NCBI GenBank assembly: GCA_011033025.1
Contig: WFMF01000027.1
Coordinates: 310,001 to 374,000, forward strand
Length of the DNA: 64,000 nt
Reading direction: 5' to 3'
Origin: Beroe forskalii
Lineage: Eukaryota; Ctenophora; Nuda; Beroida; Beroidae
In this document: one piece after another, positions 14,453 through 64,000 of the stretch
Numbering within the stretch: the first letter of the stretch is position 1
How the letters are laid out: every line of letters starts with the position of its first letter
Translations under genes and position numbers: made by a program
Notes under the pieces: model-generated
The model's database searches: none
Seen by the model: the letters and a program-made list of their open reading frames with translations, nothing else
What the model was told of the DNA's origin: nothing

Positions 14453-15073
14453 CCTGTCATCTGTCACGAACCAGTATCTTACCCCCTCAGTACGTACACT
14501 ACATGTTCTGGGACCTGTTACCTGCCCAGTATCGTGACACGTACCCCCTCAGTACGTACACTACATGTTCTGGGACCTGTTACCTGCCCAGTATCTTGAC
14601 ACGTACCCCCTCAGTACGTACACTAAATGTTCTGAGACCTGTCACCTGCCCAGTATCTTGACACGTACACCCTCAGTACGTACACTACATGTTCTGGGAC
14701 CTGTCACCTGCCCAGTATCTCGACACGTACCCCTTCAGTAAGTACGCTACATGTTCTGGGACCTGTCACCTGCCCAGTATCTTGACACGTACCCCCTCAG
14801 TACGTACACTACATGTTCTGGGACCTGTCACCTGCCCAGTATCTTGACACGTACCCCCTCAGTAAGTACGCTACATGTTCTGGGACCTGTCACCTGCCCA
14901 GTATCTTGACACGTACCCCCTCAGTACGTACACTACATGTTCTGGGACCTGTTACCTGCCCAGTATCTCGACACGTACCGCCTCAGTACGTACACTACAT
15001 GTTCTGGGACCTGTCACCAGCCCAGTGTCTCGACACGTACCCCTTCAGTACGTACGCTACATGTTCTGAGACG
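14453..15073. repeat. 62-bp minisatellite, about 10 copies
   Basis: Head-to-tail units of 62 bases containing CAGTATCTTGACACGTACC, CTCAGTACGTACACTACATG and TTCTGGGACCTGTCACCTGC. Some units carry AAGTACGCTAC in place of ACGTACACTAC, roughly in alternation at first. Because 62 is not a multiple of 3, all frames are sampled in turn and the open frames here are not genes. Each unit contains the partly palindromic GTACGTAC. Confidence 0.95.
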
Positions 15074-15426: not shown

Positions 15427-17738
15427 ATGTTTGGTTTGTTATTCGTGATAGCATTGGGAACAGCAGTAAGTTCTTTAGACTTGCTGGGAGATGAGATGAT
15501 CGATCTTCTCAACAGCAGTCCTAACATGACTTGGGTAGCAGGGAGAAACTTTGCTGTACGTAAGAGAAATATTAAATATCCTATTAGGAACCTCATTTTT
15601 CATTCCCCACAGAATAAAACGAAATTCCAATGTAAATCCTTAAATCTCTGGCTTTTTTCATGATCGGTCTGTACTCATCAATGATTAATTTAGACCATGT
15701 GATCGTCTGTACAAATATTCCAGTTAATTTATGAATGCTTTGAGTATGTTAAGATAATCGATACAAATACTGTGTTTTTATTTTACTTATACTCTAATAC
15801 TTGTACTCTTGAATGCCATATTGTCTTATTTTTGTAAGAAAAACTATGCAGTTAAAATGAATAACCCCCGACAGGGGCAGTCAGTTGGTGACGCAGTGAG
15901 ACTCCTTGGAGCTCGTCGCTCTGACTTCTGGAAGAGCAAGCTCCCCACCCTTCAGCACCGGGGTTCCAACCTGCGGGATATCCCAGAGAGCTTCGACTCC
16001 AGGACAGCGTGGCCGGAGTGCCCCTCTATCTCAGACATCCGGGACCAGGGAGAGTGCGGGAGCTGCTGGGCCTTCGGTGCCGTGGAGGCCATCAGTGACA
16101 GGATCTGCATCCACAGCCAGGGCAAAATACAGGTGAACATATCAGTGATACTAATTGGATAGCTGCCCAGTATTACATTCAAATAACCATATTTGGAGCT
16201 AATTTTAGGGTTTGAATTTGATGGGTAGTTACAAACTTAACCATAAAACTCGCAAAGCTTCAAATTTAATTGCGTCATATCAGACAATTGAAGTTTCAAA
16301 TACATACTTCTACTTCATGGAACTTCATAGGTACGTTAAAACCTATTATAGTAAGAATCCATATCCGAACTTCAGGTGAACATATCAGCTGAGAACATGT
16401 TGGCGTGTTGTGACAGCTGTGGTTTTGGGTGCAACGGAGGATTTCCCCCAGCCGCCTGGCATTACTGGGTTGGTAAGTACACTCCAGTACCACTCAGTAA
16501 ATATCTGAATATCTCAGTAAATTAATCTGAATTCATTAATTGATAAACTGATTGAATGATTGACTCGCTCACTAATTTGGCCTTCGGCAGGTACCAAAAT
16601 ATAACCATTCCAGCCATCCACACGAGCCGCCCTGCCGACGGACAAACTTACTGACTGACGGACTGAATGGTTGTATGACTTACCGATTACTGAATAACTA
16701 AATGAATAACTAAATGACTGACTCAGTATAATTGATCTGCTAGGGTATGACTGACTGACTTACAAATTGAAATAGGCAAACTGAATGAGAGACTGGCGGC
16801 TGACATTTTCCCATCTTCGCAGAGAAAGGTTTGGTTACGGGAGGGCAGCATGGCTCAGATTCAGGGTGTCAGCCGTACTCCTTCCGGCATTGCGAGCACC
16901 ACACTACCGGACCGTACGTGCCTTGCTCAGGAGATGGTCCCACACCAGAGTGCTCACACAAGTGCAGAGAGGGTAAGGGTATTCTGTAGTTCATCAGAGC
17001 ATTGCCTGAAACCTCAACGAGTTTATTGCGATCGAAAAGTATGATTGAAACCCACGGTGGGGTATGATCATTTCTTATCAATATCAGTCAGTGAAATGAT
17101 AAAAGGCCATTTCTCAACACACGTTCATTACCAAACCTTTAAAATGACCTTTTGTTTAAAAGGTCCATTAGGTAGGGAAAACATTCGCACACTCCCACTA
17201 CAGGGTACAGCATCAGCTACAAGCAGGACAAGCACAGGGGGAGGTCTGCGTATAACGTGGCTGGGGACGAGGCCACCATCCAGACAGAGATAATGAGGAA
17301 CGGACCCGTGGAGGGGGCCTTCTCAGTCTACTCTGACTTCCTGCTATACAAGAGCGGGGTGTACCAGCATGTCAAGGGTAGGTGCAATCAATACCCCCTG
17401 ATCCCTCCCAATTGCTCGATACCCCTTAACCCTTCTGCTTTGCTTAATATCCCCAAACCCCTCTCCTTTGTTCAATACACCCTAACCCCTCTCCTCTACT
17501 CAATACCCCCTAACCCCTCGCCATTTCAGGGGAGGAACTGGGAGGTCACGCTATCCGGGTGCTGGGCTGGGGCGTGGAGGACTCTGTGCCCTACTGGCTC
17601 GTTGCCAACTCCTGGAACCCCACCTGGGGAGACGAGGGGTACTTCAAGATCCTGCGGGGCTCCAACGAGTGCGGCATCGAGGGAGATATCGTGGGAGGTA
17701 TGCCACGGGAGAATAACGAGGTGGAGATGGAGTTCTAG
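15427..17738 (+). CDS. CTSB: Cathepsin B, six exons
   Basis: Exons 15427-15555, 15875-16132, 16376-16472, 16823-16972, 17204-17377 and 17530-17738 join in frame (phases 0, 0, 1, 1, 1) to 338 residues (human 339). Residues 1-16 are a signal peptide ([16 protein letters not shown]). A propeptide with an [10 protein letters not shown] motif follows. The mature papain-fold enzyme carries the catalytic cysteine in [11 protein letters not shown], histidine in [11 protein letters not shown] and asparagine in [10 protein letters not shown]. The occluding loop with its His-His pair ([13 protein letters not shown]) is present, which predicts dipeptidyl-carboxypeptidase as well as endopeptidase activity in lysosomes. 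Potential N-glycosylation sites are NMT and NIS. The start of exon 2 is the least certain border; I used CCCGACAG|GGGCAG because it keeps the frame and family length. An AATAAA signal lies at 17993. Confidence 0.95.
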
Positions 17739-20553: not shown

Positions 20554-23500
20554 ATGGCCATCCCCCCGGACCCGTATGAAGTGGCGCCCCCTGTGGAGCA
20601 TGGCTGGGCCGCCCTACACACCATGCTCTCCAAGGACACCACATCCGAGGAGCTGAAGTCAGTGTGGACCACAGCCGCCCTTGTCCTCAAGGGCTACGAC
20701 GCAGTGCCCGTGGAGCTCAAGATCCTCCTGGATCGCCTGTTCGCCACCTACCACGAGAGTGTGCGGATGGAGCGCCGCCACAGACTCGCCTACCTGGGCT
20801 GGAGCGAGGAGGAGTACGAGAGAGGCTACAAGATAGTGGTGAGTCAGGGGGCCGGGTAGGGGCAGGGGGCTGCTCCTCCTTCAGGGGGCGGCCACCCCTC
20901 TCAGAGATACGCAGTGGGAGCAGGTAGCGAAGTAGTGAAAAATAGCAGGCGTGGTGGCCGATAGTAAGCTTTAATTTTAAAGCACAGCTCATCACGGTGG
21001 CAGTGCCTCATCAGCTGGCTTCTCCACACTTGGCATTCTCCAACACCAACTCTTGGGAACAGGTAGCTGGGTGCCCTAGTGGTGTGTCCAGGGAGCCATG
21101 GACTCAGCCTCCAGGGAGAAAAACAGGGAGCCGCCACTGTGCCACCCGACCTATTAATGCTTGATATCGCTCCACCCTGATCAGAATCAGTGTACTGCCG
21201 AGCTCCTGTTGGTGCTTTTAACTTCAATTATATCGGCCGATGCTTGCTATAAGCCACGTTAATTGCTATCTGTCTTTTGATAGATTTGAGTAGCTTTTCA
21301 CATTTTCACATGATTCTCGATGGCTACCCTGTTGCTTTCTCTTGTTTGAGGCGTTGTGCGAGATCTGAAATTCAATTCGTCGTTTTTTTTTGTGATTTTT
21401 TGCTGAATCACCATCTTCGCCTGAGCTAGTTTCGATAGGAAAATCCGAGAAACAACTATTACCAACCCGAGCATTTAATCTCACGACATTTCTCTCTCAG
21501 AGCGCTTCCTCTTATCTTAACCTTGGCTCGGAGTTGAAATGCTATTAGATGAAGTGATGTGAGATATGATGTGAGATATGTCCGTGCCAATATCAGATCT
21601 TTCACCATCAGCCTTTTCAAATTCTGAGCTTTCGGATTTCCAAGTTAGGATGGTCGCATTGGGGAATTTCTATTTAGCATTCTATTCTGCATTCCTACCT
21701 ACCTACCAATACCTACCTACCTTATTGGTCCTTATTTTACCGTCCCTTTAAGGACAAACAACACCGAGTTTTTTTGAAAGGGAAGGTTTGATAAAATGGA
21801 GTCGGTTGAATTGAAATCCAGTCAATTTGTGTCAAACGAGATTCGGAACTATCGTTCTATTGATGCAATATATTGCGTATAACTGAGTTTCAAGGTGGCT
21901 GCTTCAGATTATTCGATTTTTGTCCATAAAGAAAAAAAGGCGGGTTAAAATAGGTGGGTTAAAAGTCCAATATTACTCAAGGTATGCGTTTTTGTGTTTG
22001 ACCCAGAATTAGTTACGGAGCACTGGATCAGGGCGGAGTGTGGTATCATGATCAATTAGCTGATATCTTTAGATTATCACTATTGGGTTGGACATCCACA
22101 CACCAGATGGCATGTTACACAGATACTTTTGTCTTGATTGAAATGACCTGCTTGAAAGCTCACACCAAAGGCAAGTTGGGTCACAGGTGCATCTCCAATA
22201 GGCGATTAACTAATTCAAGTAAGGAGTGGCCTCTCATTTCTAACCATGGATAAGAGAAATACCTTATTCCTCAGTAGCTCAATCTCGTCACCCTAAACCA
22301 AGGAATTGATGCTGACTGCTCCCTGAAAAACTAATCAGTGACACATTAATATTTCTGTCCATCTCTTCAATATTACGTCAAATGCAGCCCCCCGTTAATT
22401 CAACTGATACCTTTATACCTGTCCATTTACCACTCAGGACAACACTGGACAGTGGACGGGAACTAAGTCAGATGAATAAACCTGTCCCTTCCCCAGGACA
22501 ACACTGGACGGGAACTATCCCGATGGAGCCGATGGCGGGAGCCGATAGAGACGATCAGGACGTTTGTGAAGTACCCGTGCACCCAGGAGATAGCCCTGAA
22601 TATGTTGGAGGAATTGGAGAGAAGGGATGAGGAACAGGACCAGCATCTAGAATACGGTAAGAGGGGGTTTCTTGTTCAGATTTATTCGGAAATCTTCTTC
22701 ATGCCCGTGAGATAATGTCAAAATATCTATATCACTTGTTTAATGTTAATACTTCAAATAAAAACTTTTCTATATATACGTCATCGTGACCGAACTAATA
22801 TATCAGTGTTCTTTCGCTAAAAACCAAACATTTTACACTGTTAACAGGGGCAATTCGAACTGCAGTTTGCGCGTCTTTTGTCTATACGCCGCGCACACAT
22901 AAGACGCGCAGTTCGAACTGTAACCATTATAAGAGCTTATCAATAAAACGTCAATCCGACCACAGGGCAAGCAGGTTCAAGTCGTAAGAGCTTATTGAAA
23001 TGGCTCAATACTCTGATAACACCCCTCACCTCCCGCAGGTCCAGCAGGTTCAAGTCGTAAGAGGTCCCGTAAGAAGCAGACCCGGACTGTACCATGTCCT
23101 GAGCCGGGGTGTACGCGGATGTGTAGGAGTCAGGCAGAGCTGGCCATACACCGCAACTCCCATACCAAGGTAAGAGGAACACGGGATGATAACTTACCCA
23201 TGGGTGTGCATATGCATCGGTTGATGGAAACGGTGCGCATTTTACAGTGCGCGCATTCTACTAATTTCGTTGATTTTCAGTCGAAATTACACGCGTTTTC
23301 ATCGATCGATGCATGCATGTACACACATAAGATATTGAAATGAGATCCAGTTGATTCTTCGCCAAAATATGAAAGCAGAAGAGTTGCAAAAATATTCCAC
23401 TCCTATAGAGCTGCTGTATTACAACAACATTTTTTGATTTTATGAATAAGATATTATTCTGAAATTTCTCCATGATTTTCAAGCTTTTTTTGAGTTGCTG

Positions 23501-26500
23501 TTTACAAAATAAAGTGTATTTGTCATGACACGCCTATACTTTTTACTGCATTTCTACATGTGACACGCACACAAACAAGATGTTGGCGACCTACAATGAC
23601 GTCAGCACCTTGCTTTAGCATGGAGCGTTGATGAGGTCACACTGTCTACTTTGTGTGCGCGGCTTATAATAGAAACCGGACATGTGACGGTAGTTTTTTC
23701 ATAAAAATATCCGCTGAATCTTTGTTTGAGTTGCCCTTAAATGCCTCATGGAACACGTATCAATTGTTTAAGCGTTCAATGATGAAAGTCTTTAATGTGC
23801 TATTCATTTGAAGGTAGGTACCTCATCCTTTAATGCATACTCAACGTTCAGTATAGGCGTCTCTAATAAAACCAAACTCCGAAAGCAACCAGATGGCGGC
23901 AGGTCATTTCTGCAATGTATCGAGTAGTCTGTCGCCGCCGCGCAACAATAGTACAAGAGTTTTCATAGAAATTGCTGAATTGTACCACGCCTAACCATTA
24001 TGAATCTTATCATTAAAAATCCCTCATTTTCGAAAAAGGGCCCAGCGGGTTTAATTTTATGTGTTTTGAAATACTCTCATTCCTCCCCTAACATCTATTT
24101 ACCCATCACACGGAGAGGTATGCCCTATAACGAGCTCTAAACTCCAGGATCTTCCCTCTCCCCCCCTCCCTCCGTCGTAGAGGTCGGCCGGAACAGACCC
24201 CACCTTTCAGGCACCAGCAGCCGAGTCAGAACTCCCCGCCTTCGCAGATACTGATCCACTTCACCACACCCCCCTCCGCCCTTCAGGTGAGATACAGAGG
24301 ACCACGGATGCCTTCCCCTAGGTGAGATACACTTCACCACTCCCTCCCCCGCCCTTTCAGGTGAGATACATAATCACTTTCACCACACCCTCCCCTGCCC
24401 TTCAGGTGAGATACGCGCGTCTTCATCGCTCCCCACCCTTCAGGTACGAGGATACGCTTCACCATCCTCCCCTGATTCTTCGTGAGAATATGAAACCACC
24501 CCCTCCCCACCTTCAGATAAGATGCACTAACACACCCCTTTGATTTTATGAGATACAGATACCACACCCCCTTCCCCCCGCCCTTCAGGTGAGATACGTG
24601 CCTACCACTTCTGGTTGCCCTTCAGGTGAGATACACTTCACCACACCCCTCCCCGTCCTTTTAGGTGATTTCTTCACTTCCTACCACCCCTACCCCTACC
24701 CTTCGGTGATTTTTGCACTTCACCAAACAACACCGAGCATGCCTTTGATAAAAAGGTCACCAATTGAAACCACAATTTGTGTCAAACACTTCGAACTTCG
24801 TTCATTGATGCAATATATTGCGTATAACTGAGCCTGTTTGCCCTTCAGGTGTCCAGAAAAACTTTACCATACCCCTTAAAGTCCCGCCCTTCAGGTGACC
24901 CAGAATTAGTTCACCACTCCGCCATTCCCTTATCATGATGAAATGATATCTTTTAGATTACCTATTGCTTGACCCACACCTTCAGATGGCTTCACCACAT
25001 ACTTTTGTCTTGATTGAAATGACCTTCACCACACACCAAAGGCAAGTTGGGTCCCATTCCCTTCAGGTGATTAACTAATTCAGTGGCCTCCTTTCTAACC
25101 AGGGATAAAGAAACCTTATTCCTCAGGTAGCTCAATCGTCACCCTCCCCAAAAATTGATGCTGACTGCTCCCTACAAACTTCACCATTCCCTTTCTGTCC
25201 ATCATTCAATATTACGTCAATTTATTGCCCACCTTTCAGATGATTTTATACCTGTCCACACCCCCGCAACACTGGACTTCAGGGAACTACAGATGAATAA
25301 ACCCTCCTTCCCAGGACCAGGACGAGATACTATCCACCACCTCCCCCGCCGATCAGGTTTGTGACCTTCACCTGGGGGGATAGCCCTGAATTGTTGGAAA
25401 TGAGAAAGGGATGAGGAACAGGACATCTAGAATACGCCTTTCTTGTTCAACTATTCACCACACCCCTCCCCCACCCGTGAGGTCGTCATACATTGCTATC
25501 ACCCTTTAATGCCCTTCAGGTGAAACACTTTCACCATACGTCTCCCCGAACCTTATATCAGTGTTCTTTCGCTAAAACCAAACCCTTTACACTGTTAACA
25601 GGGGAATTCGAACTGCAGTTTGCGCGTCTTTTCCCTCGCGCAAATAAGCAGTTCGAACTGTGAGATATAGAGCTTATCAATAAAACGTCAATCCACCACA
25701 GGCATACCGAGGTTCAAGTCGTACGCCTTATTGGTATGGCTCCAATAGGTGAGAACACCCTTCACCTCCCCCAGGTCCCGCCTTTTCAAGGGTGAAATAC
25801 AGACCCGACTGTACCATGTCCTGAGCCCCTTCGCGGTGAGGAGTCAGGCACAGCCCCATACCCCGCCTCCCATCCAAGGTAAGAGGAACACGGATGACAA
25901 CCTACCCCGCCCATCGTTGTGATTGATACACATTTTACAGTGCCATTCCCTAATTTCGGGTGATTTTCAGTCAAATTACACCACGCATCGATCGATGCAT
26001 GCATTCAGGTAAGATATTGACTTCACCACACCCCCCCCACGCCAAAATATGAAAGCAGAAGAGTTGCAAAATATTCCCCTCCTATAGAGTGAGCTGTATT
26101 ACAAACAACCTTTTTGATTTATGAATAAGATATTATTCTGAAATTTTCCATGATTTTCAAGCTTTTTTGAGTTGCTGTTTACCCCGCCCTTTGTATTTGT
26201 CATGACACGCCTATACTTTTACCACATTTCTAGATGTGACACGCAATAAACAAGATGTTGGCCTGCCTACAATGACGTCCAGATACGCTTTTAGTACCCT
26301 CCCCGTTGATGAGGTCACACTGTCTACTTTGTGTGCCCTCCCCTGCCCTTCATGTGAGATACACTTTTCATAAAAATATCCACTTCATGTGACGCTTTGT
26401 TTGCGTAGGAGCGGCCCTTTAAATGCCCGTGGAACACGTGTATAAGTGCCTTCGGAGATAAGTCTACGATGAAAAGTCACTACTCCGCCATTCATTTGAA

Positions 26501-29500
26501 GGTAGAAATAATATCCTTTTAATGCATAATTTACAACAACCACCCCCCCCCACCTTTCGAGGTAATTTCGGCGATGGTGACACCCCCCCCGCCTTTCATT
26601 CATTCCACTGCAACACCCCTCCCCGCCTTTCAGGTGAACAATACACTACACCACCCCCATAAAATAATAGTACAAGCTGAGATACACTTCACCACTATAC
26701 TTTTGCATGAATCTATATCATTCTTCAATACTCAAATCATTTTCGAAAAAAATGGAGACATTTATTACTTAATTTTATGTGTTTTGATCACTCTGCATTC
26801 CGTAAAGCTGACAATTATTTACCACACCCCCCCAATATCATTCCTCACCACCCCCCCCCGCCTTAGGTAACGAGCTCACCACTCCCCCCCACCCCCTCAA
26901 GTGAGAAGTGCCACTGCCCTCCCCGGCGTTCGGAACAGCGCGACCACCCCCACCCCCCCCCATTTCCAGTGAAACTTCACCACACCCCTCCCCTTCCCTT
27001 CAGGTGAGATACCACCACTACCCCTCCCCGCCCTTCAGGTGAGATACACTTCACCACTCCCCCTCCCCCTCCCTTCAGGTGAGATACACTTCACCACCCC
27101 CCCCCCCGCCCTTCAGGTGAGATACACTTCACCACACCCCCCTCCGCCCTTCAGGTGAGATACACTTCACCACACCCCCTCCCCCGCCCTTCAGGTGAGA
27201 TACACTTCACCACACCCCCTCCCCCACCCTTCAGGTGAGATACACTTCACCACACCCCCTCCCCCACCCTTCAGGTGAGATACACTTCACCACACCCCCT
27301 CCCCGCCCTTCAGGTGAGATACACTTCACCACACCCCCTCCCCCGCCCTTCAGGTGAGATACACTTCACCACACCCCCTCCCCTGCCCTTCAGGTGAGAT
27401 ACACTTCACCACACCCCCTCCCCCTTTCAGGTGAGATACACTTCACCACTCCCCCCGCCCTTCAGGTGAGATACACTTCACCCTTCAGGTGAGGTGAGAT
27501 ACACTTCACCACACCCCTCCCCCGCCCTTCAGGTGAGATACACTTCACCACACCCCCTCCCCACCCTTCAGGTGAGATACACCCCACCACACCCCTCCCC
27601 TGCCCTTCAGGGTGAGATCACCACTTCCCCCTCCCCGCCCTTCAGGTGAGATACCTCCCACCACCCCCCCCACCTTCAGGTGATACCCTTCACCACACCC
27701 CCTCCCCCGCCCTTCAGGTGAGATACACTTCACCACACCCCCTCCCCCTTTCAGGTGAGATACACTTCACCACTCCCCCTCCCCCGCCCTTCAGGTGAGA
27801 TACACTTCACCACACCCCCTCCCCCGCCCTTCAGGTGAGATACACTTCACCACACCCCTCCCCTGCCTTTCAGGTGAGATACACTTCACCACTCCCCCCC
27901 CCCCCCCTTTCAGGTGAGATACACTTCACCACACCCCTCCCCCGCCCTTCAGGTGAGATACACTTCACCACACCCCCTCCCCCGCCCTTCAGGTGAGATA
28001 CACTTCACCACACCCCCTCCCCCGCCCTTCAGGTGAGATACACTTCACCACCCCTCCCCCGCCCTTCAGGTGAGATACACTTCACCACCCCTCCCCGCCC
28101 TTCAGGTGAGATACACTTCACCCTCCCCTCCCGCCTTTCAGGTGAGATACACTTCACCACTCCCCCTCCCCCGCCTTTCAGGTGAGATACACTTCACCAC
28201 TCCCCCTCCCCTGCCTTTCAGGTGAGATACACTTCACCACACCCCCTCCCCGCCCTTCAGGTGAGATACACTTCACCACCCCCTCCCCACCCTTCAGGTG
28301 AGATACACTTCACCACACCCCCTCCCCGCCCTTCAGGTGAGATACACTTCACCACCCCTCCCCGCCCTTCAGGTGAGATACACTTCACCACCCCCTCCCC
28401 CGCCCTTCAGGTGAGATACACTTCACCACACCCCCTCCCCGCCTTCAGGTGAGATACACTTCACCACACCCCTCCCCCCGCCTTCAGGTGAGACTCACCA
28501 CACCCCCTCCCGCCCCCCAGGTGAGATACACTTCACCACCCCCTCCCCGCCCTTCAGGTGAGACACTACCACTTCCCACACTTTCAGGTGACCACTCCCC
28601 CCTCCTCCGCCCTTCAGGTGAGATACACTTCACCACTCCCTCTCCCCCACCTTTCAGGTGAGATACACTTCACCACTCCCCCTCCCTTCAGGTGAGATAC
28701 ACTTCACCACACCCCTCCCCCACCCTTCAGGTGAGATACACTTCACCACACCCCCTCCCCCGCCTTTCAGGTGAGATACACTTCACCACTCCCCCTCCCC
28801 CGCCCTTCAGGTGAGATACACTTCACCACACCCCCTCCCCCACCCTTCAGGTGAGATACACTTCACCACACCCCCTCCCCGCCCTTCAGGTGAGATACAC
28901 TTCACCACACCCCCCCCACCCCTTCAGGTGAGATACACTTCACCACACCCCTCCCCACCCTTCAGGTGAGATACACTTCACCACACCCCCTCCCCCGCCC
29001 TTCATGTGAGATACACTTCACCACACCCCCCCCCGCCCTTCAGGTGAGATACACTTCACCACTCCCCCTCCCCCGCCCTTCAGGTGAGATACACTTCACC
29101 ACACCCCCTCCCCCGCCCTTCAGGTGAGATACACTTCACCACACCCCTCCCCCGCCTTTCAGGTGAGATACACTTCACCACACCCCCCCCCGCCCTTCAG
29201 GTGAGATACACTTCACCACCCCTCCCCGCCTTTCAGGTGAGATACACTTCACCACACCCCCCCCCCGCCCTTTCAGGTGAGATACACTTCACCACTCCCC
29301 CTCCCCACCTTTCAGGTGAGATACACTTCACCACCCCCCTCCCCACCCTTCAGGTGAGACACCCCTCCCCCTTCACCACACCCCCACACCCCTCCCCCAC
29401 CTTTCAGGTGAGATACCTTCACCACCACCCCTCCCCCCGCCCTTCAGGTGAGATACACTTCACCACACCCCCTCCCCCGCCTTCAGATGATATACACTTC

Positions 29501-30608
29501 ACCACACCCCCTCCCCCGCCCTTCAGGTGAGATACACTTCACCACACCCCTCCCCGCCCTTCAGGTGAGATACACTTCACCACCCCCTCCCCCCCTTTCA
29601 GGTGAGATACACTTCACCACCACCCCCTCCCCCGCCCTTCAGGTGAGATACACTTCACCACACCCCCTCCCCATCCTTCAGGTGAGATACACTTCACCAC
29701 TCCCCCTCCCCCACCTTTCAGGTGAGATACACTTCACCACACCCCCTCCCCCGCCCTTCAGGTGAGATACACTTCACCACCCCCTCCCCCGCCCTTCAGG
29801 TGAGATACACTTCACCACACCCCCTCCCCCACCCTTCAGGTGAGATACACTTCACCACACCCCCTCCCCCGCCTTTCAGGTGAGATACACTTCACCACCC
29901 CTCCCCCGCCTTTCAGGTGAGATACACTTCACCACACCCCCTCCCCCACCTTTCAGGTGAGATACACTTCACCACCACTTTCACCCCCTCCCCACCCTTC
30001 AGGTGAGATACACTTCACCACTCCCCTCCCCCGCCTTTCAGGTGAGATACACTTCACCACACCCCCTCCCCGCCTTTCAGGTTAGATACACTTCACCACC
30101 CCCCCTCCCCCGCCCTTCAGGTGAGATACACTTCACCACTCCCCCTCCCCTTCCCTTCAGGTAAGATACACTTCACCCTCCCCCTCCCCCGCCCTTCAGA
30201 TGAGATACACTTCACCACACCCCCTCCCCCGCCTTTCAGGTGAGATACACTTCACCACGCCCCTCAAATCAGTGTTTTCCAAAATATGACGGGTGAATTT
30301 CTAATCGGGATCCAACGTGTATTGTGTAAGTGTGTAATAAAATTCTCCGGCGTTGCCCAATCACCTCACTTACCCCTAACACCTCTCACTAACCCCTTGC
30401 ACCTTTTTTTAGCTGCTACGACAGTTCGTTCCTGCCGCCCAACTACGTGGGGTTCAGCCCCTACCCCTCCTCCCTTCCCATGGGGGGCCCTGTGGACTGC
30501 AAGCCCCCCGTGGGGCAGCCCAACTCCACCACCGCTCTGCTCTACTCGGACTGCAAGCCCCCCGGCTCCTACAGCCCCGGCATCAACATGCCTCCCCACT
30601 GCGTGTGA
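20554..30608 (+). CDS. Single-C2H2 zinc-finger protein, five exons, giant repeat in last intron
   Basis: Exons 20554-20838, 22497-22656, 23039-23169, 24287-24321 and 30413-30608 join in frame (phases 0, 1, 0, 2) to 268 residues ending PPHCV. Residues 1-95 are an unrecognised helical-looking domain (YLGWSEEEYERGYKI near its end); 96-148 are charged (LNMLEELERRDEEQDQHLEY). Residues 155-161 (RKRSRKK) are a likely nuclear signal. Residues 168-190 form one C2H2 finger (C-X4-C-X12-H-X3-H). Exon 4 is a 35-nt microexon (VRYRGPRMPSP), and 204-268 are a Pro/Ser/Tyr/Gly-rich tail (CYDSSFLPPNYVGFSPYPSS) like an activation region. I infer a DNA-binding regulator; the family is not recognised. Exon 4 is the least certain: it was found because it alone restores phase between exon 3 and the final exon. 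The ATG is the first in frame after the CACGTG-rich promoter. Confidence 0.65.
24240..30260 (+). repeat. 40-bp minisatellite of fused acceptor-donor splice sites
   Basis: Head-to-tail units of about 40 bases (38-41) with consensus parts CACTTCACCACACCCCCTCC, CCCGCCCTTCAG and GTGAGATA. The uninterrupted part, about 26970-30260, holds roughly 80 units; looser units occur at 24240-24720, and the interval between is a chimera. On the gene strand each unit has TTCAC about 25 bases before CAG, a pyrimidine tract, CAG, and directly after it GTGAGA. The array fills most of the last intron of the zinc-finger gene and starts at its microexon. The MRYTSPHPLP-type open frames are by-products. The strand is C-rich one way and G-rich the other. 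Confidence 0.95.
24721..26965. other. Chimera of the minisatellite and a second copy of 21755-24250
   Basis: Short blocks (5-40 bases) of the unique sequence at 21755-24250 reappear here in the same order, alternating with pieces of the 40-bp unit. Matches include CAATATATTGCGTATAACTG (21867 and 24810), ACTTTTGTCTTGATTGAAAT (22125 and 25002), AGGGATGAGGAACAGGAC (22623 and 25408), TTCGAACTGCAGTTTGCGCG (22855 and 25607) and TAACGAGCTC (24127 and 26867). Copies of exons 2 and 3 are thereby scrambled and not usable. The pattern fits a consensus built from reads of two different sequences, or a real duplication that was badly polished. Confidence 0.85.
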
Positions 30609-33600
30609 AGGGGTGGTGTGATGTCATAGTGTGACGTCATCGTATTATATAACACATGAGAGAGGATGGAGCAGGAAGTCGCAGCGATTGGCAAGATGCC
30701 AGCGATGGAAAGATGCTGATCCTAGGATTTAAAGTTATCTAGGTGTTTACAATATAGTGGGTTGTGCGCCCGTGAAAATCACGGCCAAATGGTTCAATTA
30801 AAGAACAAAATTCAATTGAACGGACCTACCATTTCAAGCAAGTTATCACGGCATTGTTACCAGTGAACAATTCCATTTGTACACCACCCTTTATCAGCGG
30901 AAGTGATAACTAATTTGCTGCAATCTGTTAATTAATTATTATCCGAGTTGAGTTTTCGTCCATTAAATTCAGAATTATTCCGTCCTATGGATTATTGGAC
31001 ATGAACACTGGAAAATGGACGGGCCTTGCCACGGCCCTGCTGGAGTGCTGGATGCCCAAAATCACTGAAATAATCCTCAAATTTCTATCTCAGAATAAGC
31101 TTTTTGTAAGGTTATTTTCTTCATTTATAGAATTTTAGAGAATTATTCGCTGATTTATGAGAGACCGTTATGTACACAGCAGGAATAGAGGACAGATCAG
31201 CCTCAAATAGTTCGTGAAACTTGATAGTCTGTTTCCAAGACGAACTCGGTGTCTTAATTCTATTAGCATTCGCGGATTTTAAGAAATCATTTACTCATTT
31301 TACTGGTAGAGTAAAATGAGATGACCTTCGAATGGTTGAGAATTTATGCTAACCTGGTTTGCATATCTGATTATTTTAACTGCAGATGAGAGAAATGAGC
31401 ATAATACTATAATATTTATCATCAATTCTTAGGCACCTGATCATAAGTGGTTACAATATTGGAGGAACCATAGATTCATCAATTAAATATAAAACACTTA
31501 GTTTTTTGGGTGACAAACTTTTTGAAATCTTAGACCAAAGTTTCTTATTTTTGCACAAGCTTCTGGTTTTCTGGACCAATGAGAATAAATGAGAACTATA
31601 GTCTCTCAGTTTCAACAGCAATTTCTGTTTTGTGTTTATGTATCTGACATGCTATTTTAATAAACTAAAAATCATGAAAGAGTCATTTTGTTAAGTTCAT
31701 ATCAATTATTCCATGTTGAGTGTAATAGAAGTCTAGTAGATTAATAGAAGTACTAAATTAGTATCAGTGTGTGAACAAGGTACTCCGAACGTATTGAAAC
31801 GTTACTAATGTAATTGTTGTTTGATATTTCGCTATGAAATTTCTAACTTCTTACTTTGCCGTCTTATTCGCCTTCAAATCAGCTAAGTATCAGAATGTTC
31901 ATAGTCAAAAAGTGGGGTCTGGGGTGCAGCCCCCAGAGGCCAGACGTTTATGTAGAAAGAACTTCTGTTGCGATAGGGTTTTTTAAAATAGAATTCAAAA
32001 TTAATGGCTTAAATTTCTTAATTTCTTAGTACGTTTCAAATAGTCGATTTCTGGCAGATGAGCAATTGGCAATCTGAATCAGCGCAAAATCAACAACCGA
32101 CCATTTATGGTGCAACAAATGACCTCAAGGTAAGACAATTCACCCCAAGGTACGAACATTTACCTCAAAGTACGAAAATTCATCCCAAGCTACGACAGTT
32201 TACCTCAAGGTGCGACATTTCACATTTCACCTCACAAACCTAATTTCACCAGAAGTTGCGATAGATGACCACAACATAGTATGACCTTGGTACGACCTCT
32301 GATCGATATAACTGGGAAGGAAGGTCTTAATGGGACCACAGGATTTATTAACGTCATCTACCATAGAATAATTTTTTGAAGTTCCTCAAAAACTCACATT
32401 TACTCAGTTGATTACAGTTGATTACAGTGCAAACAATGTGTGATACATATTACCCTATTTAGCCCCATTCACACACTCATTACAATTGCATGAGTACATT
32501 GCACTAATGTTAGAGATTGATGCTCTGCAGTGACCATTCAATTATTATGATGTTGTACCTACTCTACGCTCCTCTCTTGAGTTCTACTTGAGCAACTTCA
32601 GTTTCACAAGCGCACTAGCTACGCCTTCCCGATGATCCTTCGAATTGAGGACTAAAAATGGTGATATTTCTCCCAAAAATAAAAAGGATTTGGTAGCGCT
32701 GGAACATTTCCTGTGACCGGGAAGACTTTTCTGACTGGAAAGATATCCTTTGTCTGGGAAAGTGTATGTTAGAAAATTGGAATCCTTATAATTGTATAAT
32801 TGTTAACATCTCCACGGATTCATGCATCTTACTTTCTGCTTTCGAAAAATTCATATTTTTGGAAAATTTGCCGATTAAATTCCCGGTAGTCTTGACTACC
32901 CAAAACTACATGTGGTTAATGACATGACATGTACATGAGTAAACGACGTGATATGAGTGGCGCTAATGTTACTGGGATTCATGCTCTGCTGTGACCACGG
33001 TAAGGCAAGGGGAAATAAAGTAATATGCTGCATTGGAATATGATGTTGTACCTACTCTAATTTCCTCTACTGTGTTCTACTTATGAAATTTCGATTTTGA
33101 GGAGAAATGTCGCGGCTTGTGGTCAATTGTCTTACCAAGTGAATTGCTGTTGTGTGAAGTGAATCCTCGTATCCTCGCATGTCCGAGGGTAAAAGTCGCC
33201 CTTTCATTTTCAATGATTTTATATTAAGATGCCAGATGTTTGAATTTTTGGACCTCAATTGTCGTACTCTTGAAAACAAATTTCTTGCAATTCCATAATA
33301 TTATGTGTCCGACTACCTTACGAAATAAATTTACATGGAACAATAATTCCAGGGATCGAAATTTTGGGGTTAAATAATTTTGGGATATTTTTCGGAATAT
33401 CACGCATGTTAACGTAATACGTATGATTATGACGTCATTTAAAGTTTTCTGGGGAATGAAAATATGGGGACTTTTAACGAAAAATCCCCAAATTTCGTAC
33501 CTTTTAAATTTGTCTCGTAAGGTATGTCTCTTGCAATCTCACGTCACAACATATTTTATTAGTGTAGTTTTACGATGAGTAATAATGTCGAGCTCCGAAG

Positions 33601-40926: not shown

Positions 40927-42250
40927 TCACAAACATTGCTGATGAGTGCAATCCAGACTGAAGATTTTAGCTATGAGTAACTGGTCTGAAAAGGAACTCT
41001 TTCCACAAATAAACTGATCTTGCTTGCAAAAGCTGTCTCTTAAAGCAGATGCATCTGTATAAATAACATCATTGCAATTGTACCCAATGGTCTGCAAGGT
41101 TGCTGAAAGAGTTTCATCCTCAATTCTGTTGAACAAGATTATGGAAATATTATGGAAATTCATTTCATATCTTTCAGCATCATCCAAAATGTAATTTCTG
41201 TATGAAGATTCGAAAGAGCAACATTCCATGACTTGATGATGTGATGAATCTGGAAGCACACCACATTCAATGCAAGTAGGAACAAACTTTGGTAAAAGTG
41301 TCACAAGAGTTGTGATTTTTGTCCAATGGATCCATTGGATCCATCATGTCCAATGGACATGTCCAATGGACGTGCATTGGACATCCATTGGACAATGGAC
41401 ATCCATTGAACATGATGTCCATCGGTAAAAACGTCCAATGGTGTTCAATGGATCCAATGGATCCATTGGATCCATTTTTGATGTTCAATGGACATGTTCA
41501 ATGGATCCAATGGATGTTCAATGGAGCATTGGATCCATCTGAGTGTATCCAAGTCCAATGGACACAATCACCGAACATGGTTTGGTAGATGGACCTCAGT
41601 CTGGTTTTTTTTGTTCAATGGATCCATTGTGTCCATTGGATCCAATGGATCCATTGTGTCCATTTAACACCATTGAACATGTCCATTGGATCCATTGGAT
41701 CCATTGTATTTGGTGTCCATTGGATCCATTGTGTCCAATGGATCCATTGTGTCAATGGACAAAATGGATCCATTGGATCCAATGGACACAATGTTCAATG
41801 GATCAATGGATCCAATGGGCTTGTCCAATGGTGTTCAATGGACACAATGGATCCATTGGATCCAATGGACACAATGGATCAATGAACAAAATACCAGTCT
41901 GATGTCCATCTACCAAACCATGTTTGGTGATTGTGTCCATTGGATCCCTCAGATGGATCCATTGAACATCCATTGGATCCATTGAACATGTCCATTGAAC
42001 ATCAAAAATGGATCAATGGATCCATTGGATCCATTGAACACCATTGGACGTTTTTACCGATGGACGTCATGTTCAATGGATGTCCAATGGATGTCCAATG
42101 GACGTCCATTGGACATGTCCATTGGACATGATGGATCCAATGGATCCATTGGACAAAAATCACAACTCTTGTGACACTTTTACCCAAACTTTGATTTATC
42201 AGCCATAAAGGACATCCACAAAATTTTGGCTATTTCATACCCCTCCTTCC
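40927..42250 (-). pseudogene. Retroelement ORF tail, split by a palindromic element
   Basis: The minus-strand frame from about 42250 down to 42185 (WKEGYEIAKILWMSF and on) continues in frame, once the inserted element and one copy of the target duplication are removed, into 41290-40927. That second part contains a cysteine/histidine cluster (CIECGVLPDSSHHQVMEC) like the knuckle found C-terminal to reverse transcriptases in many LINEs. Family assignment is inferred from this motif only; no reverse transcriptase domain is present here. Confidence 0.5.
41291..42184. mobile_element. 894-bp nested palindrome rich in GGATCC, with 8-bp target duplication
   Basis: Flanked by CAAACTTT at 41283-41290 and 42185-42192. 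Ends are inverted: GGTAAAAGTGTCACAAGAG at the left, CTCTTGTGACACTTTTACC at the right. Almost the whole interior is made of the self-complementary words TCCATTGGATCCAATGGA, TTGGACATGTCCAA and variants, so it is a palindrome built from small palindromes. Open frames of the IHWIQWIHW type are by-products. No transposase. Confidence 0.9.
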
Positions 42251-56204: not shown

Positions 56205-57467
56205 CGGACCTAAGTGTACCAACTGTACCAAATGCATTATCTTGGTACAACGGGTCATATCTCCGAATTCCTTCGTCATAATTTCATGAAACTTTGCAAT
56301 CCATTTGAGAGTGGTCCTAAGAAGGGAAAAACGTCAAAAAATCGAAACTCAACGTGCTAGTTTTTCCGCTACGGTCAAACACAAGGATTTATTTTGATTT
56401 TACGAAGGTCGACTTGGTACAAGGGTCATATCTCCAATTCCTTCGTCATAATTTCATGAAACTTTGGTAATCCATTTGAGAGTGGTCCCAAGAAGGGAAA
56501 AACGTCAAAAATCGAAACTCCACGTGCTAGGTTTTTCCGCTACAGTCAAACACAAGGATTTATTTTGATTTTACGAAGGTCGACTTGGTACAAGGGTCAT
56601 ATCTCCGAATTCCTTCGTCATAATTTCATGAAACTTTGCAATCCATTCGAAAGTTATCCTAAGAATGGAAAACGTCAAAAAATCGAAACTCGTGCTAGTT
56701 TCACCGCTACAGTCAAACACAAGGATTTATTTTGATTTTACGAAGGTCGACTTGGTACAAGGGTCATATCTCCGAATTCCTTCGTCATAATTTCATGAAA
56801 CTTTTAAATCCATTCGAGAGTGATCCTAAGAAGGGAAAAACGTCAAAAAATCGAAACTCCACGTGCTAGTTTTACGCTACAGTCAAACACAAGGATTTAT
56901 TTTGATTTTGATCAGGTCGACTTGGTACGAGGTCATATCTCGAATTCCTTCGTCATGTTCATGAAACTTTGCAATTCATTCGAAGTGATCCTAAGAGGGA
57001 AAACGTCAAAAAATCGAAACTCCGTGCTAGTTTTACCGCTACAGTCAAACACAAAATTTTGATTTTACGATCAGGTCGACTTGGTACAAGGGTCATATCT
57101 CGAATTCCTTCGTCATGAATTTCATGAAACTTTGCAATTCATTGAGTGATCCTAAGAAGGAAAAACGTCAAAAATCGAAACTCCACGTTAGTTTCACCAC
57201 AGTCAAACACAAGTTTATTTTGATTTTACGAGTCGATGATACAGTCATATCTCATTCTTGTCATAATTTCTAAATTTGCAATCCATTAGAGTGATCCTAA
57301 GAAGGGAAAAACGTCAAAATCGAAACTCAGTGTAGTTTACCGCTACAGTCAAACACGGATTTCTTTTGATTTCGAAGGTCGACGTACAAGGGTCATTCCG
57401 AACCGTCATAATTTCATGAAACTTTGACTTCGAGAGTTATCCTAAGAAAAATCGAAACTCACTGCAT
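56205..57467. repeat. Satellite of about 170 bp, decaying rightward
   Basis: About seven head-to-tail units with CATATCTCCGAATTCCTTCG, TTCATGAAACTTTGCAATCC and CGCTACAGTCAAACACAAGG. The first units (56250-56900) are nearly uniform. From about 56930 each unit loses more short pieces until the array meets duplication copy B at 57468. Confidence 0.9.
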
Positions 57468-60400
57468 GTTGAGTTTTCGTCCATTAAATTCAGAATTATT
57501 CCGTCCTATGGATTATTGACATGAACACTGGAGAATGGACCGACCTTGCCACGGCCCCTGCTGGATGCCCAAAATCACTGATATAATCCTCTAATTTCTA
57601 TCTCAGGAGTAAGCTTTTGTATTTTCTTCATTTATAAAATTTTAGAGAAATATTCGCTGATTTATAAGAGACCGTTAAATGTACACAGCAGGAATAGAGG
57701 ACAGATAAGCCTCAAATAGTTCGTGAAACTTGATAGTCTGTTTCCAAGACGAACTCAGTGTCTTGATTTTATTAGCATTCGCGGAATTTAAGAAATCATT
57801 TACTCATTTTACTGGTCGAGTAAAATGAGATGACCTCCGAATGGTTGAGAATTTATGCTAACCTGGTTTGCGAATTTGATTATTTTAACTGCAGATGAGA
57901 AATGAGCATAATGCTATTATAATATTTATCATCAATTCTTAGGCACCTGATCATAAGTGGTTACAATAATGGAGTGGCAATAGATTCATCAGTTAAAAAT
58001 ATAAAACACTCAGTTTTTTTGGTAACAAACTTTTCGAAATTTCAGACTGAAGTTTCTTATTTTTGCACAACCTTCTGGTTTTCTGGACCTATGAGAATAA
58101 CTAAAGTCTCTCAGTCTTAACAGCAATTTCTGTTTTGTGTTTTTGTATCTGACATGTTATTTTAATAAACTGAAAATCATGAAAGAATCATTTTGTTAAG
58201 TTCATATTCAATTACCCATGTTGAGTAATAAATCAGTAGTTAATAGAAGTACTAAATAATATCAAGTTGTGCTGGTACTCGAATATTAAAACGTTACTAA
58301 TGTAATTGTTGTTTGATATTCGCTATGAAATTTCTAACTTCTTACTTTGCCGTCTTATTCGCCTTCAAATCAGCTAAGTATCAGAATGTTCATAGTCAAA
58401 AAGTGGGGTCTGGGGTGCAGCCCCCAGAGGCGACACGTTTATGTTGAAAGAACTTTTTTTGTTGCGATAGGGTTATTTAATTCAAAATTAATGGCAATCT
58501 GAATCATCGCAAAATCTACAACCGACCATTTAGGGTGCAACAAATGACCTCAAGGTAAGACAATTCACCCTAAGGTACGAACATTTACCTCAAAGTACGA
58601 AAATTCATCTCAAGCTACGACAATTTACCTCAAGGTGCGACATTTCACCTCACAAACCTAATTTCACCAGAAGGTGCGATAGATGACCACAACATATGAC
58701 CTCTTGGTACGACCTCTGATCGATATAACTGGGAAGGAAGGTCTAAACGGGACGACATTATCACAGGATTTATTAACGTCATCTACCATAGAATACTTTT
58801 TTGAAGTTCTTCAAAAACTCACATTTACTCAGTTGATTACAGTCCAAACAATGTGTGATACATATTACCCTATTTAGCCCCATTCACACACTCATTACAA
58901 TTGCAATTGCATGAGTACATTGCACTAATGTTAGAGATTGATGCTCTCAGTGACCATTCAATTATATGATATTGTACCTACTCTACGCTCCTCCCTTGTG
59001 TTCTACTTGAGCAACTTCAGTTTCACACGCGCGCTCATGAAGCTTTCCGATGATCCTTCAAATTGAGGACTAAAAATGGTGATATTATTCCCAAAAACAA
59101 AAAGGATTTGGTAGCGCTGGAACATTTCCTGTGACCGGGAAGACTTTTCTGACTGGAAAGATATCCTTGTTAACATATCCACGGATTCATGGATGTTACT
59201 TTCTGCTTTCGAAAAATTCAGATTTTTGGAAAATCTCCCGGCAAATTAAATTCCCGGTGGTCTTGACTACCCAAACCTACATGTGGTGCCAATGACATGG
59301 CATGTACATGAGTAAATGACGTGATATGAGTGGCGCTAATGTTACTGGGATTCATGCTCTGCTGTAGTCACTGTAAGGCAAGGGGAAATAAAGTAATATG
59401 CTGCATTGGAATATGATGTTGTACCTACTCTAATTTCCTCTACTGTGTTCTACTTATGAAATTTCGATTTTGAGGAGAAATGTCGCGGCTTGTGGTCAAT
59501 TGTCTTACCAAGTGAATTGCTGTTGTGTGAAATGAATCCTCGTATCATCGCACGTCCGAGGGTAAAAGTCCCCCTTTCATTTTCAATGATTTTATATTAA
59601 GATGCCAGATGTTTGAATTTTTGGACCTCAATTGTCGTACTCTTGAAAACAAATTTCTTGCAATTCCATAATATTATGTGTCCGACTACCTTGCTTACGA
59701 AATAAATTTACATGGAACAATAATTACAGGGGTCGAAATTTTGGGGGTACAAAATTTTGGGATATTTTTCGGAATATCACGCATATTAACGAATACGTAT
59801 GATTATGACGTCATTTAAAGTTTTCTGGGGAATGAAAATTTGGGGATTTTTACGAAAAATCCCCAAATTTCGTACCTTATAAATTTGTCTCGTAAGGTAT
59901 GTTTCTTGCAATCTCACGTCACAACATATTTTATTAGTGTAGTTATACGATGAGTAATAATGTTGAGCCCCGAAGGGGCGAGCCATTCTAACGAAGTAAA
60001 ATTACGTACTGCAACCACTATTATTTTGATAAAGTTTGTTTCGATTTTTTTTTGCGAAAAAAAAAACTAGTTTTAATGGATCGTTCACATATTACGTAAT
60101 CAATTTTTGGCCGATATCAACTCCCCCTTCCCCTCGTAATCAAGATTACAGAAGTTTTATTAGATACAATAACCAATATTTGTTACATGATGACATGTAA
60201 CGTAATCATTCCGAACCCCCCTCCCCCTATAGGTGATTACGTAATATATAATGATCCCTAAACAGCTTTGCAACTATATCTCAATATGTACGCCCTTGCA
60301 AGCAGTTGTAGTGTCAAGTAATTAACCCTCATCTGGCAATGGTAGGTCCTCATTGAGTTCTGTGAACGGGCAGAACAATTATAACACCTGAGATATACCC

Positions 60401-61989: not shown

Positions 61990-64000
61990 GCAAGGAAAAA
62001 TTCCAAACTTCAAAAATCGAAAAAGTCGAATAATTAAAAAAGTGGCAATTAGAAATTGATGAAACTTGCCAAATTTACTTATCAGACATTGACAAACATT
62101 CCTGTGGAGTTTTATAAAAATCAAAGGAGCTGTTTTTATTTAAAACACAAGGAAAGTTTTCAAAAATGCAAAAATCGAAAAAGTCCAATAGTTCAAAAAC
62201 TGGCACTTAGTAATTGATGAAACTTGCCAAATTTACTTATCAGACATTGATAAACATTCCTGTGGAGTTTTATGAAAATCAACGGAGCCGTCTTTATTTT
62301 AAACGCAAGGAAAGTTTTCAAAAAATCAAAAAATCGAAAAAGTCGAATAATTCAAAAACTGGCACTTAGAAATTGATAAAACTTTCCAAGTTTACTTATC
62401 AGACATTGATTAACATTCCTGCGGAGTTTTATAAAAATCAACGGAGCCGTTTTCATTTTATTAAACACAAGGAAAGTTTTCAAAAAATCGAAAAAGTCGA
62501 ATAATTCAAAAACTGGCACTTAGAAATTGATGAAACTTGCCAAATTTACTTATCAGACATTTATAAACATTCCTATGGAGTTTTATGAAAATCAACGGAG
62601 CCGTTTTTATTTTAAACGCAAGGAAAGTTTTCAAAAATGTATACCGTGCAAAAAATCGAAAAAGTCGAATAATTCAAAAACTGGCACTTAGAAATTGATG
62701 AAACTTGCCAAATTTACTTATCAGACATTGATAAACATTCCTGTGGAGTTTTATGAAAATCAACGGAGCCGTTTTTATTTTAAACGCAAGGAAAATTTTC
62801 AAAAATGTATACCGTGCAAAAAATCGAAAAAGTCGAATAATTCAAAAACTGGCACTTAGAAATTGATGAAACTTGCCAAATTTACTTATCAGACATTGAT
62901 TAACATTCCTGTGGAGTTTTATGAAAATCAACGGAGCCGTTTTTATTTTAAACGCAAGGAAAGTTTTCAAAAATGTATACCGTGCCAGTTTTTGAATTAT
63001 TCGACTTTTTCGATTTTTGATTTTTTGAAAACTTTCCTTGCGTTTAAAATAAAGACGGCTCCGTTGATTTTCATAAAACTCCACAGGAATGTTTATCAAT
63101 GTCTGATAAGTAAATTTGGCAAGTTTCATCAATTTCTAAGTGCCAGTTTTGAATTATTCGACTTTTTTTCGATTTTTGCACGGTATAAATTTTGAAAATT
63201 TTCCTTGCGTTTAAAATAAAAACGGCACCGTTGGATTTTTATAAAACTCCCCAGGAATGTTTATCAATATCTGATAAGTAAATTTGGCAAGTTTCATCAA
63301 TTTCTAAGAGCCAGTTTTTGAATTATTCGACTTTTTCGATTTTTTGCACGGTATACATTTTGAAAACTTTCCTTGAGTTTAAAATAAAACGGCTCCGTTG
63401 ATTTTCATAAAACTCACAGGAATGTTTATCAATGTCTGATAAGTAAATTTGGCAAGTTTCATCAATTTCTAAGTGCCAGTTTTTGAATTATTCGACTTTT
63501 TCGATTTTTTGCACGGTATACATTTTTGAAAAATTTCCTTGCATTTAAAATAAAAACGGCTCCGTTGATTTTTATAAAACTCCACAGGAATGTTTATCAA
63601 TGTCTGATAAGTAAATTTGGCAAGTTTCATCAATTTCTAAGTGCCAGTTTTTGAATTATTCGACTTTTTCGATTTTTGATTTTTTGAAAACTTTCCTTGT
63701 GTTTAAAATGAAAACGGCTCCGTTGATTTTTATAAAACTCCGCAGGAATGTTTATCAATGTCTGATAAGTAAATTTGGAAAGTTTTATCAATTTCTAAGT
63801 GCCAGTTTTTGAATTATTCGACTTTTTCAATTTTTTGCACGGTATACATTTTTGAAAACTTTCCTTGCGTTTAAAATAAAAACGGCTCCGTTGATTTTCA
63901 TCAAACTCCACAGGAATGTTTATCAATGTCTGATAAGTAAATTTGGCAAGTTTCATCAATTTCTAAGTGCCAGTTTTTGAATTATTCGACTTTTTCGATT
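61990..64000. repeat. Satellite of 150-170 bp with an orientation switch
   Basis: Units contain AACTGGCACTTAGAAATTGA, CTTATCAGACATTGATAAAC, ATTCCTGTGGAGTTTTATG and AACGGAGCCGTTTTTATTTT. Six to seven units run forward to about 62985. From about 62990 the same unit runs in reverse complement to the end of the window. As a result the plus frame 62863-63195 and the minus frame 63132-62842 encode almost the same peptide (MMKLAKFTYQTLINIPVEF). The segment 61780-61990 before it shows only weak similarity to the unit. Confidence 0.95.

Follow-up and report, generated by a model that had tools for sequence, protein, structure and literature searches.

A long minisatellite in a basonuclin-2-like gene of the ctenophore Beroe forskalii, probably derived from a duplicated exon/intron border

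We have studied a stretch of 64,000 nucleotides from the ctenophore Beroe forskalii (assembly GCA_011033025.1, contig WFMF01000027.1, positions 310,001–374,000), which we will call the window; it is C325:310001-374000 in the genome we searched (216 Mb, 1134 contigs). In the last intron of a gene similar to basonuclin-2 this window has a long array of 40-bp units, each of which looks like a splice acceptor followed directly by a donor. A previous interpretation of the letters alone, the sequence-only reading, had taken them as zero-length exons similar to recursive splice sites. We conclude that the array is very probably a minisatellite, produced by tandem duplication of the border between the penultimate exon and the last intron of this gene.

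The array is real, and it is clean only in positions 26974–30263 of the plus strand. In this region Tandem Repeats Finder detects a period of 40 nt and 84.4 copies, in agreement with the 80 or more units proposed earlier. The array had been placed at 24240–30260, but the part 24240–26973 is not clean: CAGGTRAG occurs 6 times in it and 78 times in the clean array, and it is collinear with 21300–24240. When the clean array is divided at successive AGGT(A/G)AGA motifs, 71 of the 77 intervals start with GTGAGA, contain TTCAC and end with CAG. The elements that had been attributed to every 40-bp unit are thus found in most of them, but the unit length is variable: 27 intervals have exactly 40 bp and 65 have 35–41 bp. 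TTCAC is found at about the distance of 25 bases from CAG that had been described, since its A lies 21–25 bases upstream of the final G in 62 of the 73 intervals which contain TTCAC. The tract on its 3' side is indeed dense in pyrimidines, 87% on average. Donors were scored by matching each GT site to the nine positions of CAGGTRAGT, with a cut-off of at least 8/9. The comparison of both strands, suggested by the sequence-only reading, favours the sense strand of the array, with 78 sites and none on the antisense. In the 57,939 bases of the window outside 24240–30300 there are 6 such sites on the plus strand and 6 on the minus strand. The array donor scores 8/9, against 5–7/9 for the other four donors of the gene. 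Two consensus units used together as a query had at least 45 matches among the best candidates scored, all of them on this contig.

The exons at both sides of the array match the 'zinc finger protein basonuclin-2-like' of Bolinopsis microptera and a hypothetical protein of Mnemiopsis leidyi, with E values from 2.5e-105 to 6.0e-105 and 80–86% identity. By its protein similarity the host gene is basonuclin-2-like, with orthologues in Mnemiopsis and Bolinopsis. The unit has the letters CAC TTC ACC ACA CCC CCT CCC CCG CCC TTC AG|GTGAGATA, which translate as HFTTPPPPPF(S); the counterpart of this peptide in the orthologues is HFNSPPPPPFS. Translated in phase 2, with AG left over for the exon that follows, the unit reads IHFTTPPPPPF and scores 58 against the LHFNSPPPPPF of Mnemiopsis and Bolinopsis. 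The other two phases score 3 and 6. A score of 58 was never reached in 20000 letter shuffles (best 49) or in 5000 dinucleotide shuffles (best 50). In the orthologues LHFNSPPPPPF immediately precedes S-C-Y-E-S-S. The last exon of the window opens with C|TGC TAC, so that the AG of the unit together with this C corresponds to the serine of the orthologues' FS-CYESS. The phase required by the last exon, the serine divided by the intron and the AG|GT border all agree, and the best reading of the unit is therefore the end of exon 5, the penultimate one, followed by the start of the intron. Each of the approximately 84 units would then contain the exon end (HFTTPPPPPF) and a donor: the apparent pyrimidine tract is best read as proline codons, the apparent branch point TTCAC as part of His-Phe-Thr, and GTGAGATA as the donor of the exon itself.

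This result bears directly on the proposal of recursive sites. According to it the units are ratchet points or dual-specific sites, each one an acceptor and then a donor, which allow the intron to be removed stepwise. The lettering supports it, as GTGAGA, TTCAC and CAG occur together in the 71 intervals mentioned above, an acceptor-like sequence followed directly by a donor within an intron. The tract of the unit is 94% pyrimidine, against fractions of 0.41–0.88 in eight acceptors of the window placed by eye. Its T content is 0.18, inside the range 0.12–0.47 of these eight acceptors (two of them are lower), so that base content is no argument against its use as an acceptor. Identical units would also restore the same junction at each step, and AG|GT sites used in both ways have been described, including a tandem array in human UBC (PMC10809524).

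On the other hand, ratchet points have an intronic origin, and here the codons of the acceptor half correspond to the end of the orthologues' exon. As coding sequence it needs no selection for an acceptor, since codons explain its CAG, its pyrimidine tract and its apparent branch point. Furthermore the intron has only a few kb, and ratchet points are described in far longer introns. The acceptor-then-donor order noted in the sequence-only reading is therefore retained, its assignment to intronic ratchet points is rejected, and we consider stepwise removal decidedly unlikely. The array may still work like a ratchet point, as its tract is at least as rich in pyrimidines as those of the eight acceptors.

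Under a border duplication, the array would have been born by tandem duplication of a segment made up of 32 bases at the end of the penultimate exon and 8 at the start of the intron, and it would have grown to 84 or more units by slippage or unequal exchange. The first donor, which adjoins the rest of the exon, could define this exon, while everything beyond it would leave with the last intron; an array of this kind could be tolerated for this reason. The later donors would be near-identical decoys. In the consensus frame, reading beyond the first donor gives HFTTPPPPPFR and then a stop, so that use of a later donor or retention of the intron would give a single truncated end, which lacks the 64 C-terminal residues. 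Such an mRNA would perhaps be sent to decay.

The exons of the host gene were placed with the Bolinopsis protein (P0003 in our set) by tblastn, and the plus strand reads through in exons 1, 2, 3 and the last one. This placement confirms that the array lies in sense orientation in the last intron, before the last exon. The coding part of exon 1 (MAIPPDPYEV...YKIV) is found at 20554–20838, with donor GTG|GTGAGT and 86% identity; for this exon two other protein matches, with 98% and 93%, are closer than Bolinopsis and Mnemiopsis, and it was also identified in the search of the Beroe genome itself. Exon 2 (DNTGRELSRW...LEYG) is at 22497–22656, with donor ACG|GTAAGA and 83% identity. Exon 3, at 23039–23169, has the first zinc finger (...AIHRNSHTK), donor AAG|GTAAGA and 88% identity. 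Exon 4, with the second zinc finger ERPFKCPWNTCISAFGDKSTMKSHYSAIHLK, is found whole only at 26409–26501 (97% identity), inside the region which precedes the clean array; an alignment of the two copies of this sequence shows that its counterpart at about 23725–23812 is garbled. The stretch 24173–24286 holds a garbled remnant of the end of exon 5 (HQQ..SQI.IHFTTPP) and, with its donor, the first unit; the tblastn match covers 24173–24274 with 38% identity and an E value of 0.012. A protein search of the whole genome found no intact exon 5. After the array, the remainder of the last intron occupies 30264–30412 and ends in the T-rich acceptor CCTTTTTTTAG. The last exon, in phase 2 (S|CYDSSFLPPNYVGF...MPPHCV, then a stop), is at 30413–30608, as given by tblastn and alignment; used alone as a query it found no homologues. 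A Pfam search of the gene gave only a weak C2H2 match, and no relatives were found in viral contigs. All these features are on the plus strand.

The region 24240–26973, just before the clean array, is best understood as an assembly collage, in which letters of the flank 21300–24240 would be interleaved with letters of the array. Both the array start at 24240 and the donor at 24321, taken as landmarks in the sequence-only reading, fall within it. Alignment shows the region collinear over its length with 21300–24240, with pieces of array between the collinear parts; we will refer to 21300–24239 as the first copy. The offsets of shared 11-mers fall from 2969 to about 2665, with values of 2688–2719 near the start of the array. 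The 11-mers of the array cover 609 of the 2734 bases of the collage; in the first copy they cover 32 bases out of 2940. As controls, the reversed array covers 178 bases of the collage, its complement 0 and its reverse complement 12. Between 24760 and 26973 the array covers 33% of the bases unmatched to the first copy and 12.5% of the matched ones, while the reversed array covers 13% and 4%, respectively. Flank and array alternate over bases to tens of bases, as expected of a merged consensus. Two alleles which differ by about 68 units would give such a collage, and so would reads slipped in their register. Near exon 4 of the first copy there are signs of a second register, at about 1.03 kb, which is no more than a lead (z 2.8; the next unrelated offset has 2.0). 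This possible register and the one of about 2.7 kb may correspond either to variation in array length or to read slippage.

This region could instead have originated in a genuine duplication of the 5' portion of the gene, which diverged and was invaded by pieces of the array. The region is in fact contiguous in the contig and has an intact exon 4. However exons 2 and 3 are garbled in it, and in the first copy exon 4 is garbled and exon 5 damaged: neither copy has the full set of exons, and an intact exon 5 is found nowhere in the genome. The alternation of array and flank within a few bases also speaks against a duplication. On these grounds we reject it, and leave it with hardly any probability.

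Several observations weigh against a border duplication preceded by a collage. Exon 5 is garbled in both copies and the true first unit is unreadable; the first unit adjoins the exon 5 remnant at 24173–24286, a garbled stretch. The match between HFTTPPPPPF and HFNSPPPPPF is short and rich in proline. Orthologue support comes from three proteins of two genera, the only ones returned when further orthologues of the C-terminal part were sought, and the intron at this site in the orthologues is deduced from protein alone. Our alignment of the unit translation was placed by hand and is no independent support for the border. The expected reading to a stop is found for 36 of the 75 starts in the assembled array; the other starts do not give it, because unit lengths vary. 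As for the collage, the reversed array, equally rich in C, also covers it, so that coverage is in part an effect of composition. Finally, the garbled exon 4 of the first copy is not accounted for by array letters: coverage by array 11-mers is 0 in 21300–23815. No outlier appeared either when sequence 2.7 kb farther upstream was considered as the source.

Border arrays seem to recur in other genes of this genome. We searched for a loose pattern, AGGTRAG three times with gaps of 15–45, and used the reversed pattern as a control. There were 6848 matches, against 4461 in the control; a strict version with CAGGTAAGT gave 182, against 13. These are hits rather than arrays, and they are dominated by a few long arrays. 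Among the matches listed for the loose pattern, which extend over contig C1 and 443 kb from the start of C2, there are at least 9 distinct arrays, and seven of them (L044 to L050) were examined. In six, AG|GT is the point of contact between the array and an open frame of the same strand, a visual judgement uncontrolled for open frames that arise by chance: it is an exon end in L044, L045, L047, L049 and L050 and an exon start in L046, while L048 is ambiguous.

Clear homology backs two of the seven. In L049 (C2:25400-28000, a unit of 36 bp with about 24 copies) the array adjoins an iPGM exon, whose match to PDB entry 5kgn runs as far as the final complete residue upstream of the donor (E 2.6e-13; Pfam Metalloenzyme 1.7e-9). 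In L044 (C1:309000-311700, units of 30/36 bp) it adjoins a TRIP12/HECT exon (E 1.3e-14; Pfam 9.6e-7), whose frame remains open into the array. With units of 30 or 36 bp the frame is preserved, and these two arrays might therefore be partly coding. L050 has a Sushi match under the Pfam cut-off (E 0.014). No Pfam match was found for L045, L046 and L047, nor a significant PDB match for L046, so that for these three the open frame is the evidence. Elsewhere, L001 has two copies of 139 bp and an open frame with no Pfam match, and L003 has no array of donor motifs. On the minus strand L004 is a candidate border array, with about 10.6 copies of a 34-bp unit of the CACAG|GTGAGTA type and a short open frame before it. 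Among the matches listed for the strict version there are two arrays 12 kb apart, C248:400078-401127 and 412219-414832, which have in common a unit YCEGGDLHTWLSA followed by GTAAG. Its product is presumably kinase-like, and the pair may be a further case of assembly duplication at a variable array.

With this in view it can be asked whether the focal array could be a plain intronic minisatellite, similar to splice sites only by chance. The genome is rich in minisatellites: we count 92 arrays in 264 kb, namely the window and 200 kb of other stretches (20 of 10 kb, from 100 drawn at random positions on contigs met in the other searches, which are a non-uniform sample of the genome). In these 92 arrays there is no clear excess of splice-like units: AGGTRAG is found in 3, the focal array included (mean of shuffles 1.5), GGTRAGT in 0 (1.1) and YAGGTRAG in 2 (0.5). 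However the protein, the phase and the position all match the exon end of the orthologues, and a similar anatomy is found at iPGM and TRIP12/HECT. Pure chance is rejected for these reasons; we give it almost no credence. The 7–9 arrays found on 2.97 Mb would correspond, as a rough extrapolation, to about 500–650 such arrays in the genome, a figure which does not give the share of them at borders. By a rough estimate based on general gene and intron numbers, 40-bp repeats born at random would cover exon borders in a few per cent of cases. Chance birth followed by tolerance may be enough to explain border arrays.

The window has other repeats. At 14480–15072 there is a minisatellite with a 62-bp unit, 9.6 copies and 94% match. 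The intron at 17380–17529 is largely a C-rich 28-bp repeat (4.7 copies in Tandem Repeats Finder); it lies in a gene which we take to be cathepsin-B-like, with name and borders assigned by eye. Two separate short arrays, 32122–32223 and 58547–58652, share the 20-bp unit ACCTCAAGGTACGACAATTC. Many short arrays of the TCCAATGGA/ATCCATTGT type, in both orientations, occupy 41345–42126. Arrays similar to satellites, with repeats of about 168–171 bp, are found at 56241–57448 and 62481–64000; the latter reaches the end of the window and has units in both orientations.

Minisatellites of this kind have been described in lancelets as 'mirages', in which intron/exon borders are duplicated in tandem and many units contain AG/GT (PMC3087553). 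Examples are Adh3, the globins BflGb6 and BflGb9, TnC and PGBD5, with duplications at 5' and at 3' borders. The ctenophore array also has a tandem unit which holds an exon/intron border with AG/GT, as judged by comparison with the orthologues, and by its unit it fits this class. The lancelet globin BflGb6 is reported to have 6 and 3 units in two haplotypes, and for mirages an unstable length and one aberrant draft assembly are also reported (PMC3087553). The misassembly has its parallel in our collage, while the number of units, 84 or more, is much larger here, and in another phylum. The unit of 40 bp compares with 10–72 bp in lancelet Adh3 and 150–160 bp in the globins. For the ctenophore array there are only hints that its length is variable and that the true border is its outermost unit.

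The decoy donors raise a further question: the array could have a function, if its length determined how often a decoy donor is used and thus the level of a truncated or decay-targeted zinc-finger protein. The array donors are nearer to the consensus than the others of the gene, a stop follows the first border when later donors are used (consensus frame), and the collage offsets are a hint of length variation. Yet the offsets may be errors of read register instead of alleles, and the mirages of lancelet Adh and TnC are described as giving no aberrant mRNAs, with the same suggested for PGBD5 (PMC3902484). A function of this type is doubtful, with a low probability. A wider version, in which the array is a bank of dual-specific sites that silently rebuild the exon end in stepwise removal, with array length tuning the balance of full-length and truncated protein and hundreds of genes behaving alike, is highly improbable.

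Other systems share some of these features. AGGT sites used both as donor and as acceptor are described in tandem repeats such as those of human UBC (PMC10809524) and VCX3A, and they have in common with our array one potentially two-way AG|GT per unit. However the UBC units are reported as coding and used in RNA, while the ctenophore unit of 40 bp is not a multiple of 3 and, in its consensus frame, runs into a stop at the first donor. Ratchet points of long introns have the same order, acceptor-like and then donor-like; our array differs from them by its probable origin in exon codons, its tandem organization and its intron of a few kb. In humans, internal tandem repeats at exon-intron boundaries are reported to average 30-bp units repeated 4 times (PMC2812944), and in potato an intron was gained by tandem duplication (PMC4974935). 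In both cases growth of a repeat at an exon border can create alternative or new introns; the potato case is a tandem duplication and not a long array. The minisatellites of earthworm metallothionein genes are described as intronic and not as border duplications (PMC12783039). Among the papers listed in the open-licence literature searched, by title and the start of the abstract, we found no border minisatellite in ctenophores, and in these searches the name 'mirages' was used for border minisatellites only in work on lancelets.

Minisatellites that duplicate an exon border are thus a known kind, which is extended here from lancelets to a ctenophore. They are a warning for genome annotation, as assembly over such arrays can wreck gene models; in the first copy exons 4 and 5 are both damaged. 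The present array is also a natural test of how the spliceosome selects one donor among 80 or more which are nearly identical and placed in a row. Duplicated borders have been proposed as raw material for the gain of introns (PMC3087553, PMC10809524).

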